NCBI GenBank assembly: GCA_021158225.1
Contig: JAGGUZ010000023.1
Location: forward strand, 1 to 38,463
Source: a bacterium
GTDB taxonomy: Bacteria > Patescibacteriota > Gracilibacteria > UBA1369 > PNNO01
Direction: 5' to 3'
DNA length: 38,463 bases
Notes under the pieces: model-generated
The model's database searches: none
Told to the model about the DNA's origin: nothing
Seen by the model: the letters and a program-made list of their open reading frames with translations, nothing else
Position numbers and translations under genes: made by a program
Part shown: piece by piece, positions 7,736-28,897 of the stretch
How positions within the stretch are numbered: the stretch's first letter is position 1
Layout: every line of letters begins with the position of its first letter

Positions 7736-8149
7736 ATGATTCACGAAAAATCGTGCGGTGTCGTTTTATATTACATGACTAAATCAAGTTCGGCTGAAAT
7801 CTTATTGTTGCATTATCCTGAGGGACATTGGGGTTTCCCCAAAGGGCATACTGAAAAAGGCGAGGATGATTTGCAGACTGCTCTTCGGGAACTAAAAGAG
7901 GAGACGGGGATTGGGTATGTTGAACTTGTTGATGCTTTTAAGGAAAAAATGCATTACCTCTTTAAGAATAAAGGGGAGACGATTTCTAAAGATGTTTATT
8001 TCTTTTTGGCTAAGACGAGCAATAAAAATATTGAGCTCTCTTATGAACATCAAAATTTTGATTGGCTACCTTACGACGAAGCTTTAAAGAGGTTAACTTT
8101 TGATAATGCAAAAGAAATTTTAAAAAAAACAAAGCAATTTCTTGCTTGA
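7736..8149 (+). CDS. Nudix hydrolase (Ap4A-hydrolase-like)
   Basis: 137 residues. The complete Nudix box is GHTEKGEDDLQTALRELKEE followed by TGI (G-x5-E-x7-REL-x-EE), preceded by GHWGFPKGH as in bis(5'-nucleosyl)-tetraphosphatases. The N-terminal KSCGVVLYY strand also fits the Ap4A hydrolase group. Substrate cannot be fixed from sequence. It starts 19 bp after rnc and ends in TGA. Confidence 0.88.
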   Translation: MIHEKSCGVVLYYMTKSSSAEILLLHYPEGHWGFPKGHTEKGEDDLQTALRELKEETGIGYVELVDAFKEKMHYLFKNKGETISKDVYFFLAKTSNKNIELSYEHQNFDWLPYDEALKRLTFDNAKEILKKTKQFLA

Positions 8150-8201
8150 GTCAATTATTTTTTCTATAGTTAAGGTAAATAATATTTTAAAACACATATA
8201 T

Positions 8202-9683
8202 ATGCACATAATCTATTCGAAAGTACTGACAGCAACCCCAGATATGCTTATTTGTCCTATTTTTGAAGATGGGAAATCTGGTGATATTTCTGATACGGGA
8301 CTTGGAAAAATTGTAAAAGATATGCAGAAAAACAAGCTTTTCAAGGCTCAGACAGGAGAATATAAATTAGTTTATAGCTCGTCGAAAGGTCTTCCAAAAA
8401 GAATTCTACTTGTCGGTCTTGGAAAAATTATAAAGGTAAATGATGGGCTTATAAGAAATACCGTTGCGAAAGTTTTAAAGTCGCACTTGGGGAAAGATAT
8501 AAATACTATTGGGGTTTTAACTTATAAGGCTTTGGATTTGTATACGAAACCGCTTGCGGAAGGGATTATGCTTGTCAATTATAATTTTGCTCAATACAAA
8601 ACGGGAAAGGATATGAAAAAGGCTAAAGAAAAATTATTTTCCGATTTGATTTTGTTTGGCAAAAATATTTCGGTATCCGTCAAGAAAGCTGTTAAAGAAG
8701 CTCAAATATTAAGTGATTCGGTGAATTTGGTTAGAGATCTTGTTAATGGGGCTCCAAATTATATTACCGTGGATAATTTTGCAAAAGAGGCAAAAGCGAT
8801 TGCAAAAAAGCATAAATATTCAATTAAGGTTTACGATAGAGCGTGGATCGAGAAAAAAGGAATGGGAGCTTTGTTAAGTGTTAATAATGGGTCGGGGAAT
8901 AAGACGGCGAAACTTGTTGTAATGGAGTATAAGCCAAAAGTAATGACCAAAAAAGATCCGGTTTTATTTGTGGGGAAAGGGCTTATATTTGATGCCGGCG
9001 GATATAATTTAAAGCCATCGAAATATATTGAAGATATGCATCAAGATAAAGCTGGTGGAGCTTTGGTTGTTGGAATATTTAATGCGCTTAAAGATTTAAA
9101 AATTAAAAGACATGTTGTTGGTATTGTTCCCCTAACGGAGAATCTTATTGATGCTTACGCTCAAAAACCTTCGGATGTTGTTACCAGCTATTCCGGAAAA
9201 ACAATAGAAATAAGGAATACGGATGCTGAGGGCAGACTTATTTTGGCTGATGCTCTTGCATATGGAGTTGAAACTTTTAAGCCGGAATATACAATTGATT
9301 TCGCTACTTTAACGGGTGCGTGCATGGTTGCACTTGGAGATAGATATGCTGGGTTGCTGGGGAATAATGAATCTCTTATGAAGGCGATAAAAAAATCAGC
9401 CGATAAAACCGATGAACTTGTTTGGGAGCTTCCGATACATGATGATTTTAGACAAGCAATGAAAGGAAAAGTTGCCGATTTAAGAAATATCGATAATGGT
9501 ACAAGCAGTTTGGCTGGCACTTCAAAAGCAGCTGCATTTTTGGAATATTTTGTTGGAAAGTCAAAATGGGCACATCTTGATATTGCAGGGACTGCTTATA
9601 ATGAAAAGCCTAAAGCAACGGACTATCCCTTTGCAACCGGATACGGTTTAAGACTTATGATCGATTTTTTGGAGAATTGTTAA
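8202..9683 (+). CDS. pepA: Leucyl aminopeptidase, M17 family
   Basis: About 493 residues. The C-terminal catalytic domain carries the M17 metal and active-site motifs: FVGKGLIFDAGGYNLKP (Lys and Asp ligands), the MHQDKAGG segment, and NTDAEGRLILADALAYG. The N-terminal domain is the usual poorly conserved macro-like domain. These cytosolic dizinc enzymes remove N-terminal residues from peptides and form hexamers. The frame extends to a TTG at 8142, but that overlaps the Nudix stop region and adds 20 atypical residues; the ATG at 8202 gives the normal length. Its TAA overlaps the stop of the convergent deaminase gene. Confidence 0.93.
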   Translation: MHIIYSKVLTATPDMLICPIFEDGKSGDISDTGLGKIVKDMQKNKLFKAQTGEYKLVYSSSKGLPKRILLVGLGKIIKVNDGLIRNTVAKVLKSHLGKDINTIGVLTYKALDLYTKPLAEGIMLVNYNFAQYKTGKDMKKAKEKLFSDLILFGKNISVSVKKAVKEAQILSDSVNLVRDLVNGAPNYITVDNFAKEAKAIAKKHKYSIKVYDRAWIEKKGMGALLSVNNGSGNKTAKLVVMEYKPKVMTKKDPVLFVGKGLIFDAGGYNLKPSKYIEDMHQDKAGGALVVGIFNALKDLKIKRHVVGIVPLTENLIDAYAQKPSDVVTSYSGKTIEIRNTDAEGRLILADALAYGVETFKPEYTIDFATLTGACMVALGDRYAGLLGNNESLMKAIKKSADKTDELVWELPIHDDFRQAMKGKVADLRNIDNGTSSLAGTSKAAAFLEYFVGKSKWAHLDIAGTAYNEKPKATDYPFATGYGLRLMIDFLENC

Positions 9684-10174
9684 ATTGACCAGTTCTTTAA
9701 AGTTGGGTTTACATCTTCCGGATATTCTATGTTTGGTCCAACTTCAACTGTTATTCCACGGTCTTTTAATATATCAAAATGAGGAATAACTTCCGGATAT
9801 CCCTCTTGGTAAACAACTCTTTTTATACCGGATTCCGCTATTAAACTGGCGCAAACTCTGCATGGGTGTTTTGTGCAGTATATTGTTGCACCTTTAACGG
9901 GAATACCTTCTTTGGCGGCAATAGATAAACACCATTGTTCCGCACAAAGTCCGTAGCATATCTCGCGTCTTTGCCCAGATTTGATTTTCATTTTATCTCT
10001 AATACAACCGATTTTAGTGCAGTCATATTCCGGATGCCAATCATTTGTGTGTTTAACGAGTATTTTCCCGTCTTTTACTATTGCCGCTGCGATATTTGCT
10101 CTTAAGCAATGAGCTGACGGTTCCATTTCGTCGATTATCCTAAGGAACTCTTTATCTTTTTCTGTGATTGCCAT
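9680..10174 (-). CDS. dCMP/cytidine-type deaminase with CAE zinc site
   Basis: 164 residues of the dCMP-deaminase (ComEB-like) layout. The catalytic zinc motifs are GLCAEQ and KHPCRVC. Most dCMP deaminases have His-Ala-Glu at the first motif; here it is Cys-Ala-Glu as in cytidine deaminases, giving an all-Cys zinc site. A preceding Cys set (DCTKIGC, EIC) resembles the structural zinc site of ComEB-type enzymes. Likely reaction: dCMP to dUMP, feeding thymidylate synthesis with the Dut and Tmk-like genes elsewhere in the window. Other deaminase substrates cannot be excluded. It lies 10 bp after the large orphan gene and its stop overlaps that of pepA. Confidence 0.75.
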   Translation of the reverse strand: MAITEKDKEFLRIIDEMEPSAHCLRANIAAAIVKDGKILVKHTNDWHPEYDCTKIGCIRDKMKIKSGQRREICYGLCAEQWCLSIAAKEGIPVKGATIYCTKHPCRVCASLIAESGIKRVVYQEGYPEVIPHFDILKDRGITVEVGPNIEYPEDVNPTLKNWSI

Positions 10175-10184
10175 TTTAAAATTG

Positions 10185-11888
10185 TTAAAGTTTTGTGGCC
10201 GTCCATTCTACCGTCCTATCAAAGCCCATGTTGCTGTTTACACTTATAGTCCCGCTAAATGTATTGTTTGTCCATGCACCTTTTACGGTAATTGTTCCTG
10301 TGTCGGTTGTTGGAACGGTTTGCCCATTTGTTGTTGATGTGTTATTTGCCGTATATGGACAACTTAATGATAGTATTTGAGTTAAAGGATCAAAAGATCC
10401 GGTTAAGTCACAGGTCATTGTTCCTTTTACGATTGTTTGTACGGCAGGACCTCCTCCCATTTGTATTTTTGCACTACCATCGGTTGTATATGTGATCGTT
10501 CCATAAGGGTCTTTGTCTTCACTTAAATGAAATTCCATCAACCCTTCACTTGGTATACCGGTTTGTTTATCGATAATTGTTGTTTTCGTACTATAATCTC
10601 CAATTCTAAGACTTTCTTTTGTAGGTCCAACAGGGAGATCTTCATCGTTTACTTCCGGGACTTGGGACATCATTTCAGATTCATCAACAGTATTTTTTGG
10701 ATTTAATCCAGGAACAACTACAGGCTTGCCATCAACAATATATGTTCCCGGTGGAACAAGCTGAATGAGAGTTTCCAAAACTTTATCCGGATTTTTGTAG
10801 TCTTTTAGAGAATTTGGATCTCTATTAATCCCAACATAGTCTTTGTTTGGGTCTATAGCCAGATTATAAAGTTGTTCTTCCCCGATATTTTTTTGATCTG
10901 TTATTAGTTTCTCAATTCCTTCTTTATAGCCGTAAAGAGTAATCATATTACTTGCTAAATCAACTTTCTTTTTTAGGTTTTTAAGACTTGTGAACGCAAG
11001 AATACTATTTGGAATTGCGTTAATTTTTCTTGCTTCTTTAAAGAAAGCTTTCCCAAATCGATTATCTATTATATATCCTTTTTCTCCTGCCGAAAAAATC
11101 ATATCTGCACCTCCAAAGGTAAGATTTGCCGCAGCTGTATATTCAGCAATTCCCCATGCGCTTGAACTGCCTGCCGCTGCGAGCGTCCCTCCGGAAGCTA
11201 CTATTCCAAGCCCTGCCACGGTGGTAAAAGATACATCTCTTACTTTTTTTAATAAATAGGCTCTTGTTGCCGTTAAATTTAAATCTGCATTTAGATTTTC
11301 TTGATAATCTTTTCTTGCGTATTCAAGCATGTCCATTGCGGACCTTGAATCTTGCAAATCCCATTTTTTCATAATTCTTTTTAGAATCGGATCTTTTGAT
11401 GTTTCGTTTACAATCTTCATTGTCTCGCTTGTAAGCGGGTTTTCAGTTTGGAGATTCACTTCATTTTCCTGTGCGTATGCGGTTTTAAAAATTCTTACTT
11501 CGTTCCCATCTAAATATTTATATATTCGCTTAGACCTTGTATTTACGGACTTCCATTGGTCGTAGTTGTTATCTATCATGTTTTTCCAAGTTTCCGGTTC
11601 TATTGTAGTTGTATCAATATTCACAATTGCACTTAGTAAGTACATTGCATCGGCATAATCTTCAACGGCAAGCATAAGTTCCTTTGCGTATTCATCATCG
11701 GATACAATAGGAGGAAGTGATTCTTCTTTTTTTTCTTCTTCAAGATCGGATTTGGAATTATCTTCAATTTGTGTTGTTTGTTCTTCTTTGGCGTCTTCAT
11801 TTTGTTGGTTGTTTATATAGAAATAGATTCCTATGCCTATTGCAGAGAAAAATATTACAACCAAAAGAAAGATAATAGTTTTTTTCAT
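10185..11888 (-). CDS. Large exported or membrane-anchored orphan protein
   Basis: 567 residues; family not recognised. An N-terminal hydrophobic helix (about 4-26) is followed by an acidic Glu/Lys-rich linker, so most of the protein should be outside the membrane. Residues about 75-225 are helical. A Gly/Ala-rich hydrophobic stretch (TTVAGLGIVASGGTLAAAG, about 220-265) could be a membrane hairpin. A PPGTYIVDGKPVVVPG segment lies near residue 380. The last 150 residues are Thr/Gly-rich beta strands with a Cys pair (MTCDL and LSLSCPY), resembling an Ig-like or adhesin fold with a disulfide. No catalytic motif is visible. Confidence 0.6.
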   Translation of the reverse strand: MKKTIIFLLVVIFFSAIGIGIYFYINNQQNEDAKEEQTTQIEDNSKSDLEEEKKEESLPPIVSDDEYAKELMLAVEDYADAMYLLSAIVNIDTTTIEPETWKNMIDNNYDQWKSVNTRSKRIYKYLDGNEVRIFKTAYAQENEVNLQTENPLTSETMKIVNETSKDPILKRIMKKWDLQDSRSAMDMLEYARKDYQENLNADLNLTATRAYLLKKVRDVSFTTVAGLGIVASGGTLAAAGSSSAWGIAEYTAAANLTFGGADMIFSAGEKGYIIDNRFGKAFFKEARKINAIPNSILAFTSLKNLKKKVDLASNMITLYGYKEGIEKLITDQKNIGEEQLYNLAIDPNKDYVGINRDPNSLKDYKNPDKVLETLIQLVPPGTYIVDGKPVVVPGLNPKNTVDESEMMSQVPEVNDEDLPVGPTKESLRIGDYSTKTTIIDKQTGIPSEGLMEFHLSEDKDPYGTITYTTDGSAKIQMGGGPAVQTIVKGTMTCDLTGSFDPLTQILSLSCPYTANNTSTTNGQTVPTTDTGTITVKGAWTNNTFSGTISVNSNMGFDRTVEWTATKL

Positions 11889-12219: not shown

Positions 12220-13176
12220 TTAATTTGGTTTTTCGATTTTCCAGAATTCTTGGCTTACTATCTTTCCTGGAATTGTGAATCCCGCGGCTTTTTTGTGTCC
12301 TCCTCCACCAAACTGTTCACATAACGAAGATACATCAACATCTTCGTTCCCAGATCGCATGGATCCTTGTATATTCCCGTTCAAATCTTCCGATAGCAGT
12401 ATTGTCATTTTTGATTCGGGAACGCAATTTAAGTAGTTTATCACGCCGGCAAGTTCTCTCGGGGAGGCATTTGTTTTATTTAGTTCTTCCGTACTTATTT
12501 TTGAAACTAAAGTTCCTTTTTCGTTTAGTCTTGCGTTTAGCAGTACTTTGCCCCAAAGCCTTAATTGTTCTATTGAGTGTGTTTTAAAGAGGTTTTTTGC
12601 AATAATCTTTGTATTAGCTCCTTTTGACTGAAGTTCTCCTGCAATTTTGTAAGTTTGTTCTTGAGTATTTGAATGCATAAAACTTCCGGTATCATTATAA
12701 ATTCCAGCCAACAAGCAGGTTGCGACATGGCTTTTATAATTAATATTGTAATGTTTAAAAAAATTATAAAGAATTTCTGTGGCTGATGATGCGTCCGTTT
12801 TTACAATATTTATATCCCCGTATTTCGTATTTGTAGCATGATGATCGATATTTATGATAAAGTTTTTTTTGTTTATTTCATCGGGGAATTTTGTTTGTTC
12901 TTTATTGCTACAATCCAGGGCGATTATACAATCATAATTTTTTGGTAAAACGCTTTCTATTTTATAATTTCCCTTAATGAAAAGAAGAGTGCTCGGCAAA
13001 GGATCAGCACAAACCGATATGATTTTCTTATTAAAAACTTTTTCCAGAACAATTTTCATTGCGATGTTTGCTCCTATGGTATCTGCGTCGGGATGGCGAT
13101 GAGATACAAGTACAATATTATTGCACTTGCGAATTTTTTTAAGAGCCTTTTCGAATTCCGGAATAATGCTTTTCAT
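12220..13176 (-). CDS. nrnA: DHH-family oligoribonuclease / pAp phosphatase (NrnA-like)
   Basis: 318 residues. DHH domain motifs in order: VSHRHPDADTIGAN, ALDCSN and INIDHHATN (manganese ligands), then a C-terminal DHHA1 domain ending in FGGGGHKKAAGF. NrnA degrades 2-5-mer RNAs to nucleoside monophosphates and dephosphorylates pAp to AMP. It has its own promoter (13204-13231) but sits directly downstream of RuBisCO on the same strand; this adjacency is discussed as a finding. Confidence 0.88.
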   Translation of the reverse strand: MKSIIPEFEKALKKIRKCNNIVLVSHRHPDADTIGANIAMKIVLEKVFNKKIISVCADPLPSTLLFIKGNYKIESVLPKNYDCIIALDCSNKEQTKFPDEINKKNFIINIDHHATNTKYGDINIVKTDASSATEILYNFFKHYNINYKSHVATCLLAGIYNDTGSFMHSNTQEQTYKIAGELQSKGANTKIIAKNLFKTHSIEQLRLWGKVLLNARLNEKGTLVSKISTEELNKTNASPRELAGVINYLNCVPESKMTILLSEDLNGNIQGSMRSGNEDVDVSSLCEQFGGGGHKKAAGFTIPGKIVSQEFWKIEKPN

Positions 13177-13203
13177 GTGTGCAGGAAGAAATAAAAGGCT
13201 TTT

Positions 13204-13231
13204 ATTATATGTCTTTTACTTTTCCTTGCAA
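13204..13231 (-). promoter_or_regulatory. Promoter of nrnA-like gene
   Basis: Minus strand TTGCAA, 16 bp, TATAAT. A 15-bp AT-rich palindrome (ATAAAAG-C-CTTTTAT) lies immediately downstream of the -10 box, over the expected transcription start. Confidence 0.6.
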
Positions 13232-13278
13232 GAATCTGCGCTTGCGTTAGGTTGCGTGTCGTTGTGATCTATATTCGT

Positions 13279-14583
13279 TTAAAGACCCCACTTATCAACT
13301 GCCTTCTGCAGAGCCTCGTGTGATTTGGCATATTCTTCAATCGATATTCCTTTCATTGCCGCATCTACAGCTTGTACAATAGCTTGTGCTCCGGCTGCTG
13401 TTCCATCCGGATGACCATGACATCCGCCACCCATCTGACAAACTACATCCTTTCCCATTCTTTCAATAACGACAGGGATTTTTGCAGGTTGTAGTCCGCC
13501 TGAAGCTACCGCCAAAACCGGCTTCATACCATACCATTCTTGTCCAAGAGTATTCATCTCTTCATCTGCTTTTACGCTGTCATGCTCTATTGCGTCGACG
13601 ATTGTAAGCACCTCGCGTGCTCCGCCTTCCATTTTTCCGGCACCGGCAGTTCCTATATGAAGCAGATCAACGCCCAGCATTCTATAAATCTTTGCAAGTA
13701 GTAGCATTGAGATGGTAAATCCCGGTTGTCTTGTTATTGCTCCGTGCATTGCCCTATGGGCATGAATAATTTGTCCGGTATTTTTTCTTCTATAAGTCTC
13801 TACAGCCGAGAATCCTAGTGTTACAACATCAAGCATACAAACTTCTCCGCCAAGACTTTTTACAAGGTCGCTTCTTCTCATCATTTCATCGAAATTGGAA
13901 TGAGTTATATTTGCAAGATAGAGCTTCTTATGTCCGGTTTCTTTCTCCGCTTTATCTCTCATTGCCAAAGTTAATTTCATTCTGGTGTCAAAATCGTTAA
14001 AAGCTTGTGATGTTAGATTTTCATCGTCTTTAACGATATCCAGTCCTTGTCCGTCAATTCCAGACCATGCTTGGTATCCGACTTGTGAATGTTGCTCGCT
14101 TGTTAATCCAACTTTTGGTTTTACTATTGTTCCGGTAAAAGGTCTGTCAGTCACTTTTGTTAGTTCTCTAATCCCTTCAATTCCGTGAGCGGGTCCCGGA
14201 TATTGTTCAACAATTTCTTTAGGAAATTTAATATCGCAAATCCGTAGAGTACTTAGGATTTTCATTCCCAAGATATTTCCACATACGGAAGATAAAATTC
14301 CGGACATATTATTAGTTTCGAAAAGTTCAATCGGATAAGCTATATGAACCAGTTTTTTCTCTTTATTCATCTTGAAAACATGAGGTTTTAGTTTATGAGC
14401 GATTTCATCATTCATTGTTGAAATTTTTGTCCATGTTCCAATTGAAGATTCGGCTGTAATTTGTTCAGCTCCTTCTTCAAATGGGATTCCTTCGATAGTA
14501 TCATACTTGTAAAGACAAATTACATCACTATCTTTTGGAGTGTAATCAGGATCGTAATATTGAAGATTATCTTGGTATTTCAT
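13279..14583 (-). CDS. rbcL: RuBisCO large subunit, form II/III type
   Basis: 434 residues from the ATG at 14583. Catalytic residues are intact: E45 in the ESSIGTWT segment, K155 in GTIVKPKVGL, K185 (carbamylated lysine) with D187 and E188 in DIVKDDEN, H276 in HAHRAMH, loop-6 K317 in GTAGAGKMEG and the SGGLQP and GGGCHGHPDG phosphate loops. It should therefore carboxylate ribulose-1,5-bisphosphate to two 3-phosphoglycerates. Sequence style and CPR context fit form II/III, which in this group is linked to the AMP salvage route rather than the Calvin cycle; no phosphoribulokinase is present. A TTG at 14616 extends the frame, but it lies within the promoter, so it is rejected. The form assignment is from pattern memory, not a tree. 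Confidence 0.93.
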   Translation of the reverse strand: MKYQDNLQYYDPDYTPKDSDVICLYKYDTIEGIPFEEGAEQITAESSIGTWTKISTMNDEIAHKLKPHVFKMNKEKKLVHIAYPIELFETNNMSGILSSVCGNILGMKILSTLRICDIKFPKEIVEQYPGPAHGIEGIRELTKVTDRPFTGTIVKPKVGLTSEQHSQVGYQAWSGIDGQGLDIVKDDENLTSQAFNDFDTRMKLTLAMRDKAEKETGHKKLYLANITHSNFDEMMRRSDLVKSLGGEVCMLDVVTLGFSAVETYRRKNTGQIIHAHRAMHGAITRQPGFTISMLLLAKIYRMLGVDLLHIGTAGAGKMEGGAREVLTIVDAIEHDSVKADEEMNTLGQEWYGMKPVLAVASGGLQPAKIPVVIERMGKDVVCQMGGGCHGHPDGTAAGAQAIVQAVDAAMKGISIEEYAKSHEALQKAVDKWGL

Positions 14584-14615: not shown

Positions 14616-14644
14616 ATTATACAATAGAAAAAACGAGTTGTCAT
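14616..14644 (-). promoter_or_regulatory. Promoter of RuBisCO gene
   Basis: Minus strand ATGACA, 17 bp, TATAAT. Predicted start near 14609 leaves a leader of about 27 nt before the ATG at 14583. It lies just after the DoxX-like gene, so RuBisCO can be expressed independently of the ferredoxin pair. Confidence 0.65.
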
Positions 14645-14648
14645 CTAT

Positions 14649-15542
14649 TTATATTGTTTCTTTTATTTCTCTTTCTTCAAATTGATTTCCTGTAATAATA
14701 ATATATACGATGGCGAAATAAGGGACGGCAATTGGAAGAAACGATATTCCGCCAATAATTACGGTAAGAATAAGTCCGATTGCAATAAGTATCGAGATGA
14801 ATTTTTCAAGTAAACCAAAGGTTAACAAAGCTCCGATTAGAATTCCGAATATTCCTGTATTAAAAACCAAAAGTGTGTTTGGGTAATTGCCCATTCCAAA
14901 AATACTTTGCATTATATTTAAAAGTGGTTTTTCTTGTATAAAATTAATTGCCGGAGTCGGATCGATAATATTGTGATGAAGCGCTATTATTATAAGACCG
15001 AAACCTGTTATAAATCTTAAAATTGGGAGGGCTTGTTTCCTATATTTGTCTAAAAAGTGTTTTTTCTCTATCGGATGAAAAAAGAATGAAAAACTTAAAA
15101 CATCTTTATGAACTAGAAATAAAAACAGTCCTATACCCATAAAGACACTGTAATCAAGCATTTTCAATGGATCAAAGAAGAAAAAGCCTCCTATGAAAAT
15201 TGTCATTATTCCAACAGTGCAAAGTCTGGTGAAAATTCCAAGAACAAGGCCTATCCCTATAATAATTTGCGAAAATTTAAAAACAAGGTGGGGAAGTGAC
15301 TCTCCAAGGCTGATTCCGGGGGCAAACAGATAATTTTGGGCTCCGCTTATAATCAACAGTATCCCGATTGTAATGGATAGTACGGTGGAATCTAAAAAAG
15401 CTCCGGTTCTAAGTACTTCCGTAAGTCGTTTTATAGATTTGTTTCTTCTGGCTCCAAACTCCAAAAAAAGTGCCAATATAAAAATAAAAATGGCAATTAC
15501 TGTAGGAACAACGTACCAAGTTAAGGTGTTTTGTTCAGTCAT
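14649..15542 (-). CDS. Polytopic DoxX-like membrane protein
   Basis: 297 residues, about eight or nine hydrophobic helices arranged as two similar halves: a first set around SITIGILLIISGAQNYLFAPG, and a second around RFITGFGLIIIALHHNI. The pattern recalls DoxX/DoxD-type redox-associated membrane proteins, but no decisive motif is present. Its ATG overlaps the ferredoxin stop (TAATG at 15540-15544), so the two are translationally coupled, which suggests a shared electron-transfer role. Confidence in the family name is modest; confidence in the gene is high. Confidence 0.6.
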   Translation of the reverse strand: MTEQNTLTWYVVPTVIAIFIFILALFLEFGARRNKSIKRLTEVLRTGAFLDSTVLSITIGILLIISGAQNYLFAPGISLGESLPHLVFKFSQIIIGIGLVLGIFTRLCTVGIMTIFIGGFFFFDPLKMLDYSVFMGIGLFLFLVHKDVLSFSFFFHPIEKKHFLDKYRKQALPILRFITGFGLIIIALHHNIIDPTPAINFIQEKPLLNIMQSIFGMGNYPNTLLVFNTGIFGILIGALLTFGLLEKFISILIAIGLILTVIIGGISFLPIAVPYFAIVYIIITGNQFEEREIKETI

Positions 15543-15730
15543 TATGCGACCCAGCTAATGGCATTTACAGGACATGCATCAATAGCGGATTGGATTGTGG
15601 CTTCGTCATCTCCTGCAGGATGAACCGCTTTTGATTTTCCATTGTCTTGTATTTCAAATACTTTCGGACATAATTGTACGCATAGTCCGCATCCAATACA
15701 TTTGTCTTGGTTGACTTGTGCATTTTTCAT
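15542..15730 (-). CDS. Single-cluster [4Fe-4S] ferredoxin
   Basis: 62 residues. Cluster ligands C11, C14 and C17 in CIGCGLCVQLCP plus C53 in DACPVNAISW; C21 is an extra cysteine as in Thermotoga-type ferredoxins, where it makes a disulfide, but here no obvious partner cysteine is visible. The acidic middle part is typical. It is a soluble one-electron carrier. The TAATG overlap couples it with the DoxX-like membrane protein. Partners of the ferredoxin are not identifiable in the window. Confidence 0.92.
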   Translation of the reverse strand: MKNAQVNQDKCIGCGLCVQLCPKVFEIQDNGKSKAVHPAGDDEATIQSAIDACPVNAISWVA

Positions 15731-16196: not shown

Positions 16197-16682
16197 CTCT
16201 TCCGATAATAACTCTGATAAGAATTCCTTAGCCAACTTAAGTAAGTCAGTTTGTATTGTTAAAGCGAGATTATATTTTCTGTGTAACTCAATTAATTCTT
16301 GCGATTGGGGTGCATGCGATTCTAGAATTTCTCTAATTTTTTGTCTGATTTCACTTGTTGTATGTATGTATGTTGTACCGTTTTGCTCGTTACGTATTCC
16401 CGAGAGAAGTATATTGCAAATATGAATGGCAAGTGGTACCGAATTATCTCTTTCTTTATGTAATTCTGCGAATTGGATAATTCTATCAGTTGTTAAATCA
16501 ATTTCTAAAAGATTTTTGATTTTACTGAACATGGGGGCGCAACTAGCTTCTACTAATGCATCAAGTGGAAGATTTTCTTTAGGTATGTAATTTGAATCGT
16601 TGTTTTCTGGCGCCATAACTAAAAAAGGTAGCAAGGTAAGGAGTGTCATTATGCATGTATCTGTAGCAATTGTCAAGCTCAT
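16191..16682 (-). CDS. Orphan protein coupled to PP2C phosphatase
   Basis: 163 residues, no recognised family. The first 24 residues are hydrophobic (IMTLLTLLPFLVMA) and could be a signal peptide or anchor; the rest is predicted helical with LHKERDNS and LIELHRKYN segments. Its ATG overlaps the TGA of the PP2C gene (ATGA at 16679-16682), so it is very likely made together with the phosphatase and may be a partner or target. Confidence 0.6.
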   Translation of the reverse strand: MSLTIATDTCIMTLLTLLPFLVMAPENNDSNYIPKENLPLDALVEASCAPMFSKIKNLLEIDLTTDRIIQFAELHKERDNSVPLAIHICNILLSGIRNEQNGTTYIHTTSEIRQKIREILESHAPQSQELIELHRKYNLALTIQTDLLKLAKEFLSELLSEEI

Positions 16683-17779
16683 TCTATGATTGTGGCGGCA
16701 ATGCTGATATTATCCGGTTTACCTTTCCAATCTTTCATCATTTTAATTGCTTTTTCCTTTAAGGACTCAACGATTTTTTTAATGTTCGTACTTGTTTTGA
16801 GTTGCTCTTGTACATATGTGGCGATTTCTTGCGGTGAAATTGTATCGGATAATCCATCTGAACATATTAAAGCAACATCACCTTTTTGGACTTTTAAAAC
16901 AGTATGATGTGGATTGGTACTATCTTCCGAAGTTTCGCCGGTTTTAAGGTTAATTGCGTTTGCATCATGTCCGAGAGATTGAATAATTGAGCTTGGATTC
17001 ACATCTAATTTTGAAATTAAATCTTTTGCCTTTTCTTCGCCTATGTTCCTGCTTTCCATCATAAATGAAAGTAAATTATCATCTTGAGAATTATAAACAA
17101 GTTTGCCGTTTCTTATTAAAAGGGCTTTACTGTCTCCAACATGAACAAATTCGACTGTTTGATCTTTTTTACTCAGTCGCATTGCAACGAGGGTGGTACT
17201 ACAATCTTCAAATTTTGGACCATTATGTTTTTGATATGTTTGAACAGCTCTGTGCAATAGAGTTGGGAGTTCGTTAAAATGAGTTCCTTTTTTTAGGAAT
17301 TGTGCGGTGCCATATGTTGCAAGTGCGGAAGCAGCGTACCCAGTTCGTGAAGATCCTACCCCATCTGTGATAATCATTGTATCAGTATTTTTATCGATTA
17401 AGATGCCATCGTCATTTATTTCATGATTTACTCCGATATCTGTTGTGGCATATGCTTCGCCTGTTGCAAGTTGTACTTCTGTAGAACCATTTTCGTTACC
17501 TGCGAAGGCATACATATTTTTAGGTAATTCAAGTGTTTTACTGACAGGTTTTTGAAATTTTGTATCCGGTACCCCAAAGGTAATATGTGGAGGTATGATT
17601 TTTTCTCTAGTTTTATGTTGAAGTTCTTGAATCTCGACGAGATCTGTATCCGAAAGTTCAATAACATCATCATCTTGAGGATGAAATTTTTCCAGAAGGT
17701 CGTTGATTTCTTGTTCTGTAGGATTGAATTCAGAGTCCTGATTTGGGCTTGTACTGTGAGCAGTATTGTTGTTTGGCAT
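16679..17779 (-). CDS. PP2C-family serine/threonine protein phosphatase
   Basis: 366 residues. The first 85 are acidic and disordered, beyond the usual catalytic core. Metal and fold motifs in order: TTDIGVNHEINDDG (residues about 113-125, first metal Asp), ITDGVGSSRTGYAA (D139), HVGDSKALLIRNG (about 214-226), LICSDGLSDTIS (D308) and GKPDNISIAATII (D356-N357). This is the PPM phosphatase pattern; it removes phosphate from Ser/Thr on proteins using two Mn or Mg ions. No Hanks-type kinase is visible in the window, so its substrates are unknown. First gene of a three-gene set with two orphans. Confidence 0.88.
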   Translation of the reverse strand: MPNNNTAHSTSPNQDSEFNPTEQEINDLLEKFHPQDDDVIELSDTDLVEIQELQHKTREKIIPPHITFGVPDTKFQKPVSKTLELPKNMYAFAGNENGSTEVQLATGEAYATTDIGVNHEINDDGILIDKNTDTMIITDGVGSSRTGYAASALATYGTAQFLKKGTHFNELPTLLHRAVQTYQKHNGPKFEDCSTTLVAMRLSKKDQTVEFVHVGDSKALLIRNGKLVYNSQDDNLLSFMMESRNIGEEKAKDLISKLDVNPSSIIQSLGHDANAINLKTGETSEDSTNPHHTVLKVQKGDVALICSDGLSDTISPQEIATYVQEQLKTSTNIKKIVESLKEKAIKMMKDWKGKPDNISIAATIIE

Positions 17780-17910: not shown

Positions 17911-19083
17911 TTATTTCTTGTACCTAAGAACTTTTTTACTAAGGGGATCTGTTATCTCAATTTCGTTAACTCCTTCTTTTGAGGATTGCTCAACTCGGCC
18001 TATTACTTTTGCTTCTATATCAAAATTGTTGGCCGTTTCAATAATTCCATCAACATCTTCTTTTGTACAAGAGATTATTAATCTGCATCCCATATTGAAT
18101 GTTTTGTATAATTCATATGGCTCAATATTCGAGTTTTCATATACGAATTTAAAGAACGGACCCGAGTTAATCATATTGTCCATTACATATTTTACATTTT
18201 TACCGAATCTTATAGGTTTTGTTAGTCCACCACCCGTACAATTAAAAATGCCTTTTATTTTATATCGTTTGGCTTTTAGTAGCTCTTTTATAAGTGGCAG
18301 ATACGAGCGAGTGGGGGATAGCATTGCTTCTCCCAATGTTAGGCTTGTATTTGGAATTTGTGTTCTTAAATCAAATTTTCCTGAATATGCATTATCCGAG
18401 ATATTCTTATCGTAAGTTTCCGGATATTTATCTTTATAGGAAGAATTTAACATAGCGTGGATCAACAATGTAAAACCGTTACTGCTGATCCCTGAATTGT
18501 ATTTGTCTTCGTATTTGGCTTTCCCATATGATGCGAATCCAATCAAAATGTCTCCATTGTCGGTTTTGCTGGCATCTATTACATCCTCTTTTTTCATTCT
18601 GGCGGAGACATCGGAATTAACAACAATAGTACGCACATTATTGCCTGTATCAGCGGTTTCTCCTCCACACATATCAATTTTTGCGTAATTGGAAAGTTTA
18701 GTGATTGATTCTTCGTATCCATTGATAATTTTTGATATTACTTCATCGGAAATTATTAACGGGTTTCTGTCGATTGAGTTGGTTAGCTTAAAATTATCTG
18801 TAGCACCTACGGCGACCATATCGTCAATATTCATAACAAGGCTATCTTGAGCAATCCCTTTCCATATATCGGGACTAAAGCCTTCTTTTGTTGCTATATA
18901 CGCTACATTTGCTTTGCTTCCGGATCCATCCGTATGTTTAATGTAGCAATATGAGTCATCACCAGCAATATCGGATGAAATAAAACAAAAAGCTCCCGGG
19001 AAAAGCCCTTTGGATAATCCGGTTATTGCTTTATGAACAGCATCTTTATCTGCATCTGATCCCAGTTGTTTGTAAGTAAGCAT
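17911..19083 (-). CDS. purM: Phosphoribosylformylglycinamidine cyclo-ligase (AIR synthetase)
   Basis: 390 residues, longer than the approximately 345 of E. coli PurM. ATP-dependent ring closure of FGAM to AIR, step 5 of purine synthesis. Recognisable parts: KHTDGSGSKANVAYIATKEG, KGIAQDSLVMNIDDMVAVGATD, MCGGETADTGNNVRTIVV, ISSNGFTLL and FNCTGGGLTKP. The wording of these motifs and the length resemble the long PurM variant I associate with Bacteroidetes rather than the short proteobacterial type. It is separated from purF-purD by 7 kb but on the same strand. No Shine-Dalgarno precedes the ATG. Confidence 0.87.
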   Translation of the reverse strand: MLTYKQLGSDADKDAVHKAITGLSKGLFPGAFCFISSDIAGDDSYCYIKHTDGSGSKANVAYIATKEGFSPDIWKGIAQDSLVMNIDDMVAVGATDNFKLTNSIDRNPLIISDEVISKIINGYEESITKLSNYAKIDMCGGETADTGNNVRTIVVNSDVSARMKKEDVIDASKTDNGDILIGFASYGKAKYEDKYNSGISSNGFTLLIHAMLNSSYKDKYPETYDKNISDNAYSGKFDLRTQIPNTSLTLGEAMLSPTRSYLPLIKELLKAKRYKIKGIFNCTGGGLTKPIRFGKNVKYVMDNMINSGPFFKFVYENSNIEPYELYKTFNMGCRLIISCTKEDVDGIIETANNFDIEAKVIGRVEQSSKEGVNEIEITDPLSKKVLRYKK

Positions 19084-21073: not shown

Positions 21074-23986
21074 ATGTACAACAAAGCAAAAGCTCTCAAA
21101 CGCAGTACAAGCATATTTACGCTTGTTTCTCTTGCGTTTATGATGTTTGTTACAAGTATTGCGCCTGTTAGCGCAGATGCGCCTGCAATCAGCTCATTTG
21201 GGGTGGTCCAATCATCATTTAACCCATCCATTCAAAGAGCACAAATTGGTATGTCTCTTAACACAAGCGGGAAAATCGGGCTTGAAATCCAACAAGGGTC
21301 TAATCCGATTAAAACTCTTGCTATAAGACAAGACGTTGTTGCCGGAAGTCACACCTATTATTGGGATGGAACGGATGATAACGGAGTTAGGGTTGCGGAT
21401 GGAACATATAAAGCGCAACTTCTTTTTTATGGAGATAATTTTACTTTATTTGCAAGTGATAATGTTGTTGTAAGCTCGGATTCCGGTTCTACTCCTCAAA
21501 CGGATGTGATTACAAATGATTATGCTTATCCTTCTTCATTTGATCCAAGAAATGAGTATCCTAAAATATATTTCACATTAACCGAAGCGGTTAGTGATTT
21601 AACGGTACGTATAGAAAAAGATGGAGTCGAAGTTGTTACTCTTGCTTCCGGAGTAAGCAAAGCTCCTGGAACTTATTCTTATCAATGGAATTCCAGGGAT
21701 AAACATAATGTTATAGTTGGAGAAGGGGAGTATCGTTATGTAATTACTGCAAAAGGCGATATAGAATACGGATATCTAATGGCAAGTTATGGAAATGTAA
21801 ACGGAGTTGCTCCAAGTATAACAAACGATTATGCATCTCCATCGTCATTTGATCCTCAAATCGAAAATACTTATGTTCATTACACTCTTAATGTCGGATC
21901 GTATGTAAATGTTAACATTTATGACGGATCTACTTTGGTAAAGAATTTGGTCTATTATGAAAACCAAACTTCCGGAGCTCATTCTGTTGCTTGGAATGGT
22001 CATAATTCAAATGGTGATATTGTTGTGCCTGGTTCATACAGATATGTGATTAAAGCTAAAAATGCATGGGGAGAAGATACGGAAGATGGGACTGTAACTG
22101 TTAACTATACTGTTGTTGATCCTGTAGTTACTCCTGATATTACCAATATGTATGTTTCTCCTAAAACCTTTGATCCATCGGAAAATGAACAGATGAATGT
22201 TAACTATACGCTAAATACTTGCGCTTATGTTACGGCGAAAGTCTATAAAAAATCCGATAATTCTTATGTAGACACTTTAAAAGAAGTTGATTATCAATGT
22301 GCCGGAACTTATTCCGAGGCATGGAATGGTCGTGATTCAAGCAATAATATCGTAAGCAATGATGATTATACAATTAAGGTAAATGCAATTAATTCTAAAG
22401 GTTCCGATACCGAGCAAGATGATGTTACTGTAATTGACGCAAGTGAAACTCATAACGCTCCGAATGTCTCTAATTTGGACGTTTCGCCGGAAACATTTGA
22501 TCCTTCTAACGAAACAACAACTGTTTCGTTTAATCTTAATGAATGTGCGGATACGGATGTACGTGTTTACGATTATAATGATAATCTTGTAACTGAACTT
22601 AGAGATAATGTGAATTTATGTGAAGGATCTCACTCTGTTACATGGGATGGAGAAGATAATCATAATGATAATGTGGATGAAGGTGATTATTATTTCAAAG
22701 TTTCGGCGCAAAACTCTTATGGATATGATAGCGAGAAAGTCTATGTAAGAGTTGACTATTCTTCATACAATGGTAATGAAGATCCAAGTATTACTCGCAT
22801 TGATGTTAATCCGGATGTTTTTGATCCGTACGATGAAAGAACGGAACTTAGTTTTAAGTTAAACACTTGCGCAGATGTTACAATTGAAGTTCGTGATATG
22901 GATAACGATCGTGTTGCGGATATAATTAACGATAGGAACCTTTGCGAAGGAACGCACGATTATAGATGGGATGGTGAAGACAATAGTGGAGATAAAGTTC
23001 GTCAAGATAAATACGAGTTCTATATAAGAGCTGAAAATAGTAAGGGACTGGATACTGCACGTGTTGATGTTGAAGTGGATTATAATAATCATCACATTGA
23101 TTCGGAAGACAGATGTGTAGGATATCTTGATGTAAGTGCAAACGATCCTTATTGTGAAGCAATTGAATATGTTAAAGGTGCTGGAATATTTGATGGATAT
23201 GACGATGGCTTGTTTAGACCGTATCAAGCGATTAATCGTGCTGAAACAACCAAAGTTATTGTAAGAGCCTTTAATTACCCTGAATTACCGCCTGATGGAA
23301 CGAACCTTGGATTTTGGGATGTATCACCGTGGGATTGGTATATGGGATATCTCAGAACCGCCAAAGAATATGGAATTATCCAGGGATATCCGGATGGAAG
23401 TTTTAAACCGGCTCAGGTTACAAATAGGGTTGAACTATTAAAAATCTTTCTAAAGTCTGCAAGTGTTGCTCTTCCTACATGCACTACCGCAAGTTATCCG
23501 GATACGGCTGTTAACGGTTGGTATTCGGATTACGTATGTTATTCGAAGATGCACGGATTAATGGATACTGATTATTATGGAAACTTTAATCCCGGAAAGC
23601 CAATGACAAGAGGTGATGTGGCAAAACTCTTTTACAGATTCTCGAAAAGAAATCTTGGAGGAAACAATTATAATAACTATGGGGATGCGCCACATGTATC
23701 TGATGTAAGATTTTCCGACTATAGTCTTAGCGAAGGAGATTCTTTTAGAATTTATTATACGGTTGACGAATCGGCTGATGTAACCGTAGAAATTTTGGAT
23801 GACAACAAACATGTTGTTAGAACACTTGTTGATGATCTTTATAAATCACGAGGGGATCACAGTGTCTATTTTGACGGAGAAGATAAATATTCCGATGACT
23901 TACAAAATGGAATGTACTTTGTAAGAATTGAAGCAAAGAATAGTGATGGCTTTTATAAAGTTGATGTTAGATTTGAAGTTGAGTAG
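21074..23986 (+). CDS. S-layer-like protein: Ig/FlgD-like repeats with central SLH triplet
   Basis: 970 residues. The signal peptide ends at VSA (about residue 34). Six repeats of about 100-110 residues begin near residues 35, 146, 249, 356, 465 and 573; each has a TFDP or SFDP motif, a central W(D/N)G-(E/R)D motif and a closing YxxxAxNxxG segment, matching FlgD-type Ig domains. Repeats 4-6 each carry one Cys pair (TCAY/QCAG, ECAD/LCEG, TCAD/LCEG), likely a disulfide. Three SLH domains follow (about 684-865; GIFDGYDDGLFRPYQAINRAE, IIQGYPDGSFKPAQVTNRVE and LMDTDYYGNFNPGKPMTRGD). A seventh Ig repeat (about 872-970) closes the protein. SLH domains bind pyruvylated wall polymer. The strong promoter and intrinsic terminator suggest high monocistronic expression. 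Confidence 0.88.
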   Translation: MYNKAKALKRSTSIFTLVSLAFMMFVTSIAPVSADAPAISSFGVVQSSFNPSIQRAQIGMSLNTSGKIGLEIQQGSNPIKTLAIRQDVVAGSHTYYWDGTDDNGVRVADGTYKAQLLFYGDNFTLFASDNVVVSSDSGSTPQTDVITNDYAYPSSFDPRNEYPKIYFTLTEAVSDLTVRIEKDGVEVVTLASGVSKAPGTYSYQWNSRDKHNVIVGEGEYRYVITAKGDIEYGYLMASYGNVNGVAPSITNDYASPSSFDPQIENTYVHYTLNVGSYVNVNIYDGSTLVKNLVYYENQTSGAHSVAWNGHNSNGDIVVPGSYRYVIKAKNAWGEDTEDGTVTVNYTVVDPVVTPDITNMYVSPKTFDPSENEQMNVNYTLNTCAYVTAKVYKKSDNSYVDTLKEVDYQCAGTYSEAWNGRDSSNNIVSNDDYTIKVNAINSKGSDTEQDDVTVIDASETHNAPNVSNLDVSPETFDPSNETTTVSFNLNECADTDVRVYDYNDNLVTELRDNVNLCEGSHSVTWDGEDNHNDNVDEGDYYFKVSAQNSYGYDSEKVYVRVDYSSYNGNEDPSITRIDVNPDVFDPYDERTELSFKLNTCADVTIEVRDMDNDRVADIINDRNLCEGTHDYRWDGEDNSGDKVRQDKYEFYIRAENSKGLDTARVDVEVDYNNHHIDSEDRCVGYLDVSANDPYCEAIEYVKGAGIFDGYDDGLFRPYQAINRAETTKVIVRAFNYPELPPDGTNLGFWDVSPWDWYMGYLRTAKEYGIIQGYPDGSFKPAQVTNRVELLKIFLKSASVALPTCTTASYPDTAVNGWYSDYVCYSKMHGLMDTDYYGNFNPGKPMTRGDVAKLFYRFSKRNLGGNNYNNYGDAPHVSDVRFSDYSLSEGDSFRIYYTVDESADVTVEILDDNKHVVRTLVDDLYKSRGDHSVYFDGEDKYSDDLQNGMYFVRIEAKNSDGFYKVDVRFEVE

Positions 23987-25139: not shown

Positions 25140-26456
25140 TTATCCGCGAATTTCTTTCATATGATCGATGCGCTTTTGAATTAAAGCATCAGTACCAATA
25201 TCATCTCTGTAAAACACTTTACCACTGATGCTCGAAAGAGCCGATGCGGCAATTTTTTCCGCATCGGAAATTGTGTCTGCGATCCCAACAAAGGCAAGGG
25301 CGCGTGAAGAGCTCATATAAATGCCATCTTCTTTTTGGTCAACAGAAGCGTAGTACATTTTAACTTCTTTCGGCACCTTTCCTATTTCGATTTTTTTACC
25401 TTTTACAGGATTTTCCGGATATCCTTCCGGCACGACATATTTGCAAACCGTAGCTTTTGGAGCAAATTTAACATCCAGTTGATCTAAGGTTCCGTCGATT
25501 ATACGTTCGCAAATTTCAACAAAGTCGGTTTCTAAAATCGGTAGTGCATTCATGGCTTCAGGATCGCCAAAACGAGCATTAAATTCGATTAATTTCGTGC
25601 CGTTTTTAGTGGCAATGAATCCTCCATACATAATTCCTTTAAATTCGGCACCGGTTTCTTTAAAAAGAGCTTGTGCCGTCTTTTTAGTTATTTCAATAGC
25701 TTCTCTTATGTCTTGATCGGTAATAAACGGAAGTTTGTGGTCTGCGTCTGAATAAGTGCCCATTCCTCCAGTATTTGGGCCGGTATCTCCATTATATGCT
25801 CTCTTATGATCCTGAATCGCAGGCATTGGGACAACATGAGTCCCATCGCAAAAACACATCAAACTAAATTCTTCTCCAATCAATTTCTCCTCTATAACGA
25901 CTCGACCGAATTTATCAATGCATTGTTTTGCAAAGGTAGTTCCTTCTTCGGTTGAATGTAAGTGTTCTCCCGATACCTTTACTCCTTTTCCGCCCATAAG
26001 TCCGTCTGCTTTTACTACAAAATTCCCGCCAAGATCGTTATCGATAAATTCTTTAATTTCTTTTGTATCAACGAATACTTTAAATTTAGGGTTGCCGGGG
26101 ACACTGTATTTGTTAAGCAAATTTCTTGTAAACGATTTTGATGATTCAAGCCGTGCAACTGTTTGAAGAGGTGCCATCGAACGGATGCCCATTTCCAACA
26201 AAGTATCAACTGCTCCATCCGCAATCGGATCGTCAGGTCCAACAATTGCAAAATCCGGTTTCTCTTCAGCTACCAATTTTTTTAATTGTTCAAATGTATC
26301 AAGTGGTCCGATTTCATACTTGTCAGCTAAAGTTGCAATCCCGGGATTTTTGGCTTTTCCATAAGCGATTATAGATATTTCTTGAGGACTTCTTTTTAAT
26401 GTTTCAGCAATAACATGCTCTCTGGCGCCATTGCCAACAAGGAGAATTTTTTTCAT
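25140..26456 (-). CDS. purD: Phosphoribosylamine--glycine ligase
   Basis: 438 residues. ATP-grasp enzyme of purine step 2, joining phosphoribosylamine and glycine. The N-terminal KILLVGNGAREHVIAETL, the ATP-grasp core (NFVVKADGLMGGKGVKV, then LIGEEFSLMCFCDG), DHKRAYNGDTGPNTGGMGTYS and the FNARFGDPEAMNALP metal site are complete. It follows purF by 26 bp at the end of a leuS-folD-purF-purD run. Its 3' end lies only 6 bp from the slipin remnant, in opposite orientation. Confidence 0.95.
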   Translation of the reverse strand: MKKILLVGNGAREHVIAETLKRSPQEISIIAYGKAKNPGIATLADKYEIGPLDTFEQLKKLVAEEKPDFAIVGPDDPIADGAVDTLLEMGIRSMAPLQTVARLESSKSFTRNLLNKYSVPGNPKFKVFVDTKEIKEFIDNDLGGNFVVKADGLMGGKGVKVSGEHLHSTEEGTTFAKQCIDKFGRVVIEEKLIGEEFSLMCFCDGTHVVPMPAIQDHKRAYNGDTGPNTGGMGTYSDADHKLPFITDQDIREAIEITKKTAQALFKETGAEFKGIMYGGFIATKNGTKLIEFNARFGDPEAMNALPILETDFVEICERIIDGTLDQLDVKFAPKATVCKYVVPEGYPENPVKGKKIEIGKVPKEVKMYYASVDQKEDGIYMSSSRALAFVGIADTISDAEKIAASALSSISGKVFYRDDIGTDALIQKRIDHMKEIRG

Positions 26457-26482
26457 TCTAAATAAACGTTAAGGTACAAATT

Positions 26483-27970
26483 TTATAAAAGGCTCAAAGG
26501 TTCACTGTTTTCTTCGGGGCTTGGATGAGATAGTTTTCTTACTTCTTCAACTTCCTTTAAAACTTCTTCTGTAACTTCAGGTGTAGGGTATTTGCCGGAA
26601 AAGCATGCTCCGCAAAAACTTGTAATGTCTTTATTCCCTTCTTTTGCGGCTTTTTCAAGGTCTTCAAGTGTTTGATAAATAACTTTATCCGCACCTATTA
26701 CTTTTGCAATAGTTTCCTCGGATAAATTATATGCGAGAAGGTCCTTTCTTGTAGGCATGTCAACACCGTAAACGCATGGAGAAACAAGCGGAGGAGCGCA
26801 AGATGCGAAATATACTTTTTTTGCTCCTGCATTGCGTACCATTCCAACGATTCTTTTTGATGTGTTTCCCCGCACTATGCTATCGTCAACCAATAAAACG
26901 TTTTTATCCTTAAATTCGAGTTTTATCGGATTTAGTTTAAATCTGATGGATCTTTGTCTTTGTGATTGGTTGGGCATTATGAATGTTCTGCCGATATATC
27001 TGTTTTTTACGAGTCCTTCTCTATATTTAACTCCAAGCTCATGTGCTAATGGTATTGCGGAACTTCTTGCCGAATCGGGTACCGGAATAACAACATCTAT
27101 ATCCAGTTTTTCTTTTTTAATTCGTTTTGCCAAATATTCACCAAGTCTAAGTCTTGTTTTATAAACGCTGATACCATCAAGAGTTGAGTCTGGACGAGCA
27201 ATATAGACCCATTCAAAAAGACATGGCGCCCATGATCTTTTTTTTGCGCATATTTTTTTGTGTATTTGAAATTTTGTGTCTATAAATACAACTTCACCCG
27301 GTTGAATATCTGCGATGTAATCAAATCCAAGAGTATCCAAAGAAACGCTCTCCGAGGCAATTACATAATCACTTGTCATTTTAGAGTCTTTCTTCCCGAG
27401 AATAAGCGGTCTTATTCCGTATGGGTCTCTAAATGCAATTAGTCCATGACCTGCAACAAGGGCTACAACCGAGTAACTTCCTTTTACTTTCTTATATACT
27501 TCTTCCATGGCCTTAAAAATTTGCTCAGGAGTTAATTTGTTTGAATTCATTGCTCTTAATTCATGAGCTACTATATTTAAAAGGACTTCCGAGTCCGATT
27601 TCGTATTTAAAAAACGCATTTCTTTTTCTATAACTTGTTTTTTTAATTCATTGTAATTTGTAAGATTTCCATTATGTACAAGGGCAATTCCAAAAGGGGA
27701 GTTAACATAAAATGGTTGAGACTCTTCCGCATTGTAACTTCCAGCCGTTGGATAACGAGTATGTCCTATGCCCATGTTCCCGGTCAGACGTATCATATTC
27801 TTTGTTCTAAAGACATCTTTTACAAGACCGTTTCCTTTTTTTAGATGGAACTTGTTATCAAATGTAACTATTCCGGCTGAATCTTGACCTCTATGTTGTA
27901 GAGTTAAAAGACCATCATAGATTTCTTGTGCTACGTTCTCACTGGACATTAAACCAAGAATTCCACACAT
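26483..27970 (-). CDS. purF: Amidophosphoribosyltransferase, Fe-S type
   Basis: 495 residues. First committed purine step: PRPP plus glutamine to phosphoribosylamine. Begins MCGILGL with no propeptide, so Cys2 becomes the glutaminase nucleophile after Met removal. PRTase motif NVLLVDDSIVRGNTS is near residues 355-369. The four cysteines that hold a [4Fe-4S] cluster in Bacillus PurF seem present: APCLFEW, the SP-x-V segment with CVYG, and CGAC near the C-terminus. It starts 15 bp after folD and precedes purD, consistent with an operon. Confidence 0.95.
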   Translation of the reverse strand: MCGILGLMSSENVAQEIYDGLLTLQHRGQDSAGIVTFDNKFHLKKGNGLVKDVFRTKNMIRLTGNMGIGHTRYPTAGSYNAEESQPFYVNSPFGIALVHNGNLTNYNELKKQVIEKEMRFLNTKSDSEVLLNIVAHELRAMNSNKLTPEQIFKAMEEVYKKVKGSYSVVALVAGHGLIAFRDPYGIRPLILGKKDSKMTSDYVIASESVSLDTLGFDYIADIQPGEVVFIDTKFQIHKKICAKKRSWAPCLFEWVYIARPDSTLDGISVYKTRLRLGEYLAKRIKKEKLDIDVVIPVPDSARSSAIPLAHELGVKYREGLVKNRYIGRTFIMPNQSQRQRSIRFKLNPIKLEFKDKNVLLVDDSIVRGNTSKRIVGMVRNAGAKKVYFASCAPPLVSPCVYGVDMPTRKDLLAYNLSEETIAKVIGADKVIYQTLEDLEKAAKEGNKDITSFCGACFSGKYPTPEVTEEVLKEVEEVRKLSHPSPEENSEPLSLL

Positions 27971-27985
27971 GAGCGCATTTTGTTA

Positions 27986-28843: not shown

Positions 28844-28897
28844 ATAAATGCGCAAAGAGACGCGCACATATTAGCAGGAAAGATTATTGCTTGCAAA

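Follow-up and report, generated by a model that had tools for sequence, protein, structure and literature searches.

A RuBisCO gene followed on the same strand by a gene for an RNA-trimming DHH phosphoesterase raises the question of whether the two products form one route from RNA to 3PG or are neighbours by chance. This pair was found in a tiny, uncultured CPR bacterium, in a contig of 38,463 nucleotides that was analysed at its full length (the window, one entire contig) and that belongs to a genome of 990 kb and 99% completeness. The explanation that we regard as probable is that a form III RuBisCO acts in a pathway of NMP breakdown, that the DHH enzyme is a housekeeping neighbour, and that a deaminase gene further along the locus is a relocated partner of the pathway. 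In what follows, genomes, contigs, loci and families carry G, C, L and f numbers, with G000 the window genome and f1 the family of the window.

The genes of the locus are collected in Table 1. They are ordered along the minus strand, in the direction of transcription, as ferredoxin, DoxX-like membrane protein, RuBisCO, DHH phosphoesterase, a 567-aa protein and deaminase. Both the RuBisCO and the DHH reading frames are intact at exactly the positions first given for them, in the same orientation and with a gap of about 100 nt; in the list of open reading frames RuBisCO appears as a longer version of 445 aa that starts from an upstream TTG.

Table 1. Features of the RuBisCO locus and other genes observed in the window
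Feature	Position	Strand	Remarks
Form III RuBisCO large subunit	13279..14583	-	434 aa, ATG at 14583; TIGR03326, solved relatives, motifs, tree
DHH-DHHA1 phosphoesterase, NrnA/pAp-phosphatase/DhhP-like	12220..13176	-	318 aa; PF01368 and PF02272 above cut-off
dCMP-deaminase-like protein, CAE..PCxxC zinc site	9680..10174	-	164 aa; PF00383
DoxX-like membrane protein	14649..15542	-	297 aa; PF07681 21.9 bits, slightly under the cut-off of 23.6
Ferredoxin	15542..15730	-	62 aa; PF13370 Fer4_13, 61 bits
567-aa protein without known domain, between DHH and deaminase genes	10185..11888	-	position not kept in relatives
Leucyl-aminopeptidase-like gene, convergent	8142..9683	+	closes the RuBisCO gene block
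Promoter-like site 5' of RuBisCO	14616..14644	-	ATGACA-17-TATAAT, 11/12
Promoter-like site in RuBisCO/DHH gap	13204..13231	-	TTGCAA-16-TATAAT, 10/12
PP2C-like protein phosphatase	16679..17779	-	near the RuBisCO block
purD, purF, folD cluster and PurM-like synthase	25140..28867 and 17911..19083	-	purine biosynthesis in a reduced CPR genome
970-aa protein	21074..23986	+	repeated FlgD Ig-like and S-layer homology domains; surface protein likely

The edges of the block can be followed in relatives. The ferredoxin and membrane-protein genes share the letters TAATG, with the stop codon of the first overlapping the start codon of the second. In family f1 the DoxX-like gene stays with the locus: it lies upstream of RuBisCO in L114, L115, L117 and L118 and adjoins the DHH gene in L194, a locus without RuBisCO. 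Ferredoxin is also found near RuBisCO in families f4, f2 and f12. At the other end, the aminopeptidase gene is an old boundary of the locus: it directly adjoins RuBisCO in several f4 and f2 genomes and does so often outside the family (L123, L124, L129, L241), which implies that the DHH and deaminase genes arrived at the locus later. In the f4 and f2 loci, RuBisCO is preceded by a gene for a thioredoxin-reductase-like flavoprotein and mostly also by a ferredoxin gene (L123:843-4039, L124:9442-12686, L125:329-3421 and L129, which ends at a contig end), and a redox link to RuBisCO is possible there. L123 additionally has a NifU-like protein.

Pathway genes and their distribution

In the proposed pathway, AMP phosphorylase (AMPP), ribose-1,5-bisphosphate isomerase (R15Pi) and form III RuBisCO would carry the ribose of an NMP to RuBP and on to 3PG. 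The preliminary description had named AMPP and R15Pi as the genes to look for, and both were found in the window genome, adjacent to one another. AMPP (C33:11070-12551) scores 498 bits, below the NCBIfam equivalog cut-off of 535; its best solved relatives are 4ga5 and 4ga6 (E 1e-96), with the N-terminal domain included in the match. Similarly, R15Pi (C33:10192-11052) scores 230 bits, below its equivalog cut-off of 314, and its best solved relative is the ribose-1,5-bisphosphate isomerase 5yfj (E 5e-59), with methylthioribose-1-phosphate isomerase (MtnA) at 5e-32; the THCHS and GCDAI motifs align. Enolase was found in the genome as well. Across the 89 genomes of the window's order on which all co-occurrence counts are based, RuBisCO is present in 23, AMPP in 38, R15Pi in 36 and an NrnA-like DHH protein in 88, and R15Pi accompanies RuBisCO in 22 of the 23. 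This gene content supports the assignment of the RuBisCO to AMP/NMP-to-3PG salvage, as had been suggested, and predicts that the locus can turn the ribose of RNA building blocks into fuel by way of two partner enzymes encoded elsewhere in the genome. One complete genome (G242; L128, L274) has RuBisCO while AMPP, R15Pi and the small deaminase went undetected; its sister genomes have them.

AMPP and R15Pi lie in an operon with two genes of acetate metabolism, in the arrangement pta-ackA-AMPP-R15Pi (L113, G000 C33:10192-14762), with gaps of 17-22 nt and one overlap of 4 nt. The same operon is common across the order and connects nucleotide salvage with acetate formation. We infer both the fluxes of the pathway and a tie, through this Peregrinibacterial operon, between NMP breakdown and acetate-forming ATP synthesis.

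Many relatives retain the RuBP-forming enzymes though RuBisCO is absent. AMPP and R15Pi are found without RuBisCO in 14 genomes of the order (G003, G045, G114, G126, G153, G191, G223, G231, G271, G280, G283, G294, G310 and G316; e.g., L257, L258, L259). A class II aldolase, sought as a sink for RuBP, was found in none of the 14, and where RuBisCO is lacking, the AMPP-R15Pi loci hold no obvious RuBP-consuming genes. These 14 genomes pose the question of what RuBP serves in bacteria without RuBisCO.

The deaminase and the isomerase gene

The small deaminase at the far end of the locus follows R15Pi rather than RuBisCO. Within the order, 34 genomes have both deaminase and R15Pi, 1 has the deaminase only, 2 have R15Pi only and 52 have neither, an agreement in 86 of 89 (Fisher p = 5e-21; family-stratified permutation p ~5e-5). 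Since 13 genomes with the deaminase are without RuBisCO, it is the isomerase that the deaminase tracks; the deaminase was also absent from the RuBisCO loci examined in other CPR and in archaea. In families f2, f4, f5, f6, f8, f9, f12, f13 and f33, orthologues (46-83% identical) lie directly or closely behind the R15Pi gene, giving the order pta-ackA-AMPP-R15Pi-deaminase. The f1 deaminases nest among these isomerase-linked sequences in the gene tree, so that the window copy looks relocated: it would be a pathway partner moved from its usual place behind R15Pi. In one genome (G305; L254:1-1439) an acetate kinase gene, a 97-aa ORF and the deaminase gene remain in a row, and AMPP and R15Pi have apparently been lost.

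The zinc site of the protein (C77-A-E79, P104-C105, C108) is invariant in 25 sequences, as is a second cysteine cluster. Its AlphaFold model (pLDDT 86) matches the dCMP deaminases of T4, S. mutans and cyanophage S-TIM5 (1vq2, 5c2o, 4p9c), the type of enzyme to which its closest solved relatives also belong, while its score with the NCBIfam ComEB model is 42.7 bits against a cut-off of 219. A rival reading takes the protein for a dCMP deaminase of the ordinary kind, serving dTTP synthesis, and its place in the R15Pi operon for inherited gene order without function. The fold and these relatives speak for it, and the order behind R15Pi is largely ancestral in this group. We nevertheless consider this reading unlikely. 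Deaminase and R15Pi are gained and lost jointly inside families f4, f2, f8 and f5; the tracking persists in f1, where the two genes are no longer neighbours; and the deaminase is absent from f10 genomes, which have AMPP but no R15Pi. The window genome, moreover, encodes a separate, canonical dCMP deaminase with an HAE motif, fused to a P-loop kinase-like domain (L272:5082-6116, G000 C16), and for this reason dCMP need not be the substrate of the small enzyme. Many genomes of the order that have RuBisCO also have this fusion; the larger matches returned by the deaminase search in the order are such fusions and were set aside as a different protein.

The gene distribution thus leaves the relocated partner as the preferred reading, and the deaminase appears to belong to the NMP pathway. 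Its role is probably to prepare NMPs for the phosphorylase. The Thermococcus kodakarensis phosphorylase takes AMP, CMP and UMP (PMC9700705), and acceptance of CMP and UMP by this type of enzyme makes deamination of CMP to UMP, ahead of phosphorolysis, a reasonable first guess. Comparative genomics here singles out an unstudied deaminase as a near-constant companion of a pathway, and the link raises a testable question about how nucleotide-eating CPR bacteria handle CMP.

The DHH neighbour

The DHH protein is less easily tied to the pathway. Its description as an NrnA-type phosphoesterase holds at the level of the superfamily, where the DHH and DHHA1 domains exceed their Pfam cut-offs and the DHH and GGGGH motifs are present, and fails at the level of the NrnA equivalog (NF053633), with 113.6 bits against a cut-off of 350. 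Its best solved relatives are TmPDE, the TM1595 phosphodiesterase (5o1u), and NrnA (8iu7). We propose that it would act across the order as a housekeeping enzyme, converting nanoRNA, pAp or pApA to nucleotides.

The alternative, put forward in the preliminary description, is that the DHH gene is a dedicated supplier of AMP for the start of the pathway and that the pair is an RNA-to-3PG module. NMPs are the release products of NrnA-like enzymes, the genes are closely spaced on one strand, and their adjacency is kept in 6 of the 7 genomes of family f1 despite differing flanks (L117, L118). The wider distribution makes this improbable. The DHH protein occurs in 88 of the 89 genomes irrespective of RuBisCO (Fisher p = 0.26 for association), and of the 55 RuBisCO neighbourhoods outside the family that an HMM search covered in the phylum, some truncated at contig ends, none has it beside RuBisCO; none of 74 further archaeal loci has it there either. 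Adjacency that is confined to one family, in which the surrounding synteny is conserved too, amounts to a single historical event, and chance gene order largely accounts for it. A second full-length DHH paralogue is encoded elsewhere in the window genome, the same DHH lineage occurs in family f3 without RuBisCO or AMPP, and among the DHH loci fetched from other families no orthologue lies near AMPP-R15Pi.

Promoter sequences and gene loss point the same way. The separate promoters reported earlier are borne out by TATAAT boxes 5' of both genes in five genomes of the family: one upstream of RuBisCO (G000, G061, G259, G250 and G227) and one, conserved likewise, in the RuBisCO/DHH gap, where G061 also shows, by eye, a hairpin that resembles a terminator and has a run of T. 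The DHH gene persists where RuBisCO has left the locus: in G132 (L194:8397-12789) the block of ferredoxin, membrane protein, DHH, deaminase and aminopeptidase genes is intact and RuBisCO is gone. The same genome has a form II/III RuBisCO elsewhere (L116:9333-10709).

On these grounds the DHH gene was rejected as a part of the pathway, and we infer that its adjacency to RuBisCO is without function. The RNA-trimming gene is probably a chance neighbour and its product probably a housekeeping enzyme; a single rearrangement in the ancestor of family f1 would most simply explain how it came to lie beside RuBisCO. Some contribution is still plausible, since RNA-derived NMPs all need some nuclease and the DHH enzyme may give a share of them to the pathway, though nothing singles it out for this task.

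The RuBisCO, its form and its known relatives

The large subunit had been described as complete and as form II/III-like. Completeness is confirmed: the motifs AESSIGT, GNILGM, KPKVG, VKDDE (with the carbamylated lysine), HAHRA, loop-6 GKM and SGG are intact, and the residues for RuBP carboxylation are all present (KPK, KDDE, HxHR, the loop-6 K, SGG, the N of GN[IV] and the E of AESS). The form, judged from profile scores and phylogeny, is III. The enzyme scores 543 bits with the type III model TIGR03326, above the cut-off of 497, and 315 bits with the form II-type model PRK13475, below the cut-off of 489; form II/III relatives score in the reverse pattern on these two models. Among solved structures, archaeal form III enzymes are its best relatives. 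A tree of 96 RuBisCO rows places the window enzyme with those of its own family (G259, G250, G227) and order (G179, G268), in a group that also holds further form III sequences from CPR and archaea; the form II/III clade of Methanococcoides burtonii is separate, and a form II/III identity was rejected on the scores and this grouping. A RuBisCO-like protein of form IV, or an enzyme that serves a different cycle (e.g., one dependent on phosphoribulokinase), is barely credible: form IV-like proteins exist in some genomes of the class (L242), but here all the catalytic motifs are in place, the form III cut-off is exceeded, and R15Pi and AMPP are both in the genome.

A close relative of the window carries a different form at this position. 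The sequences of G061 and G132 fall with M. burtonii, and G061, of the same genus, has the same gene block with flanking proteins 74-81% identical and a form II/III RuBisCO (L114:9019-10440, against 13279-14583 in the window) that is 77% identical to the M. burtonii enzyme and 42% to that of the window. An identical neighbourhood around a different form implies replacement at the same locus, and thus an apparent exchange of RuBisCO form within one genus, which would be a natural experiment on the interchangeability of the forms. A broader reading, possible but on the doubtful side, is that the NMP pathway of this CPR order is an extended one, with a CAE-type deaminase as obligate partner of R15Pi (e.g., for CMP to UMP), that about 14 genomes run AMPP-R15Pi, usually with the deaminase and with neither RuBisCO nor the haloarchaeal aldolase, so that the fate of their RuBP becomes a question, and that forms III and II/III have been swapped at one locus.

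Form III and II/III RuBisCO in AMP salvage is established in archaea and CPR (PMC9700705, PMC7304191, PMC7495880). The core pathway is therefore already known, and the window is one more well-documented member. For CPR, a nucleotide-salvage RuBisCO of form II/III and III goes back to Wrighton 2016 and Jaffe 2019, as cited in PMC7304191; the window resembles that system in its CPR host, in the same three enzymes and in a patchy, laterally transferred RuBisCO. Our literature search, for which the primary CPR RuBisCO papers lay outside the scope, met no description of the deaminase partner or of the same-locus form swap, and the novelty of both is provisional; the deaminase companion is, provisionally, new relative to the literature found.

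The closest counterpart is the pentose bisphosphate pathway of T. kodakarensis, whose NMP phosphorylase, R15P isomerase and form III RuBisCO are all present in the window genome (PMC9700705, PMC12628685). The R15Pi and AMPP of the window genome have T. kodakarensis-type enzymes as their best structural relatives. In T. kodakarensis, the ribose of nucleosides ends chiefly as acetate and alanine (PMC12628685), and pyruvate and acetate as end products are plausible in the window genome through pta-ackA. The window differs in its bacterial host, in the operon that AMPP and R15Pi share with pta-ackA, in the extra deaminase gene that tracks R15Pi in its order, and in a RuBisCO gene unlinked from AMPP and R15Pi. 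A second counterpart is found in the Nucleotidisoterales (Ca. Nanohaloarchaeota), for which oligonucleotide breakdown has already been proposed as the feed and in which deoA, e2b2 and form III rbcL are likewise coupled to lower glycolysis and acetogenesis; these organisms are archaeal, and the sections of that source drawn on here describe no deaminase partner (PMC9563170). The DHH protein of the window, for its part, shares domain architecture, DHH and GGGGH motifs and a full-length match with the NrnA/TM1595 DHH-DHHA1 phosphodiesterases and differs from them in scoring far under the NrnA equivalog cut-off. Finally, the 14 relatives with R15Pi and without RuBisCO resemble the haloarchaeal non-carboxylating pentose bisphosphate pathway, in which the isomerase also occurs without RuBisCO (PMC9700705). 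They differ from the haloarchaeal route in having no class II aldolase and in retaining an NMP phosphorylase, an enzyme found in the surveyed archaea only together with RuBisCO (PMC9700705).
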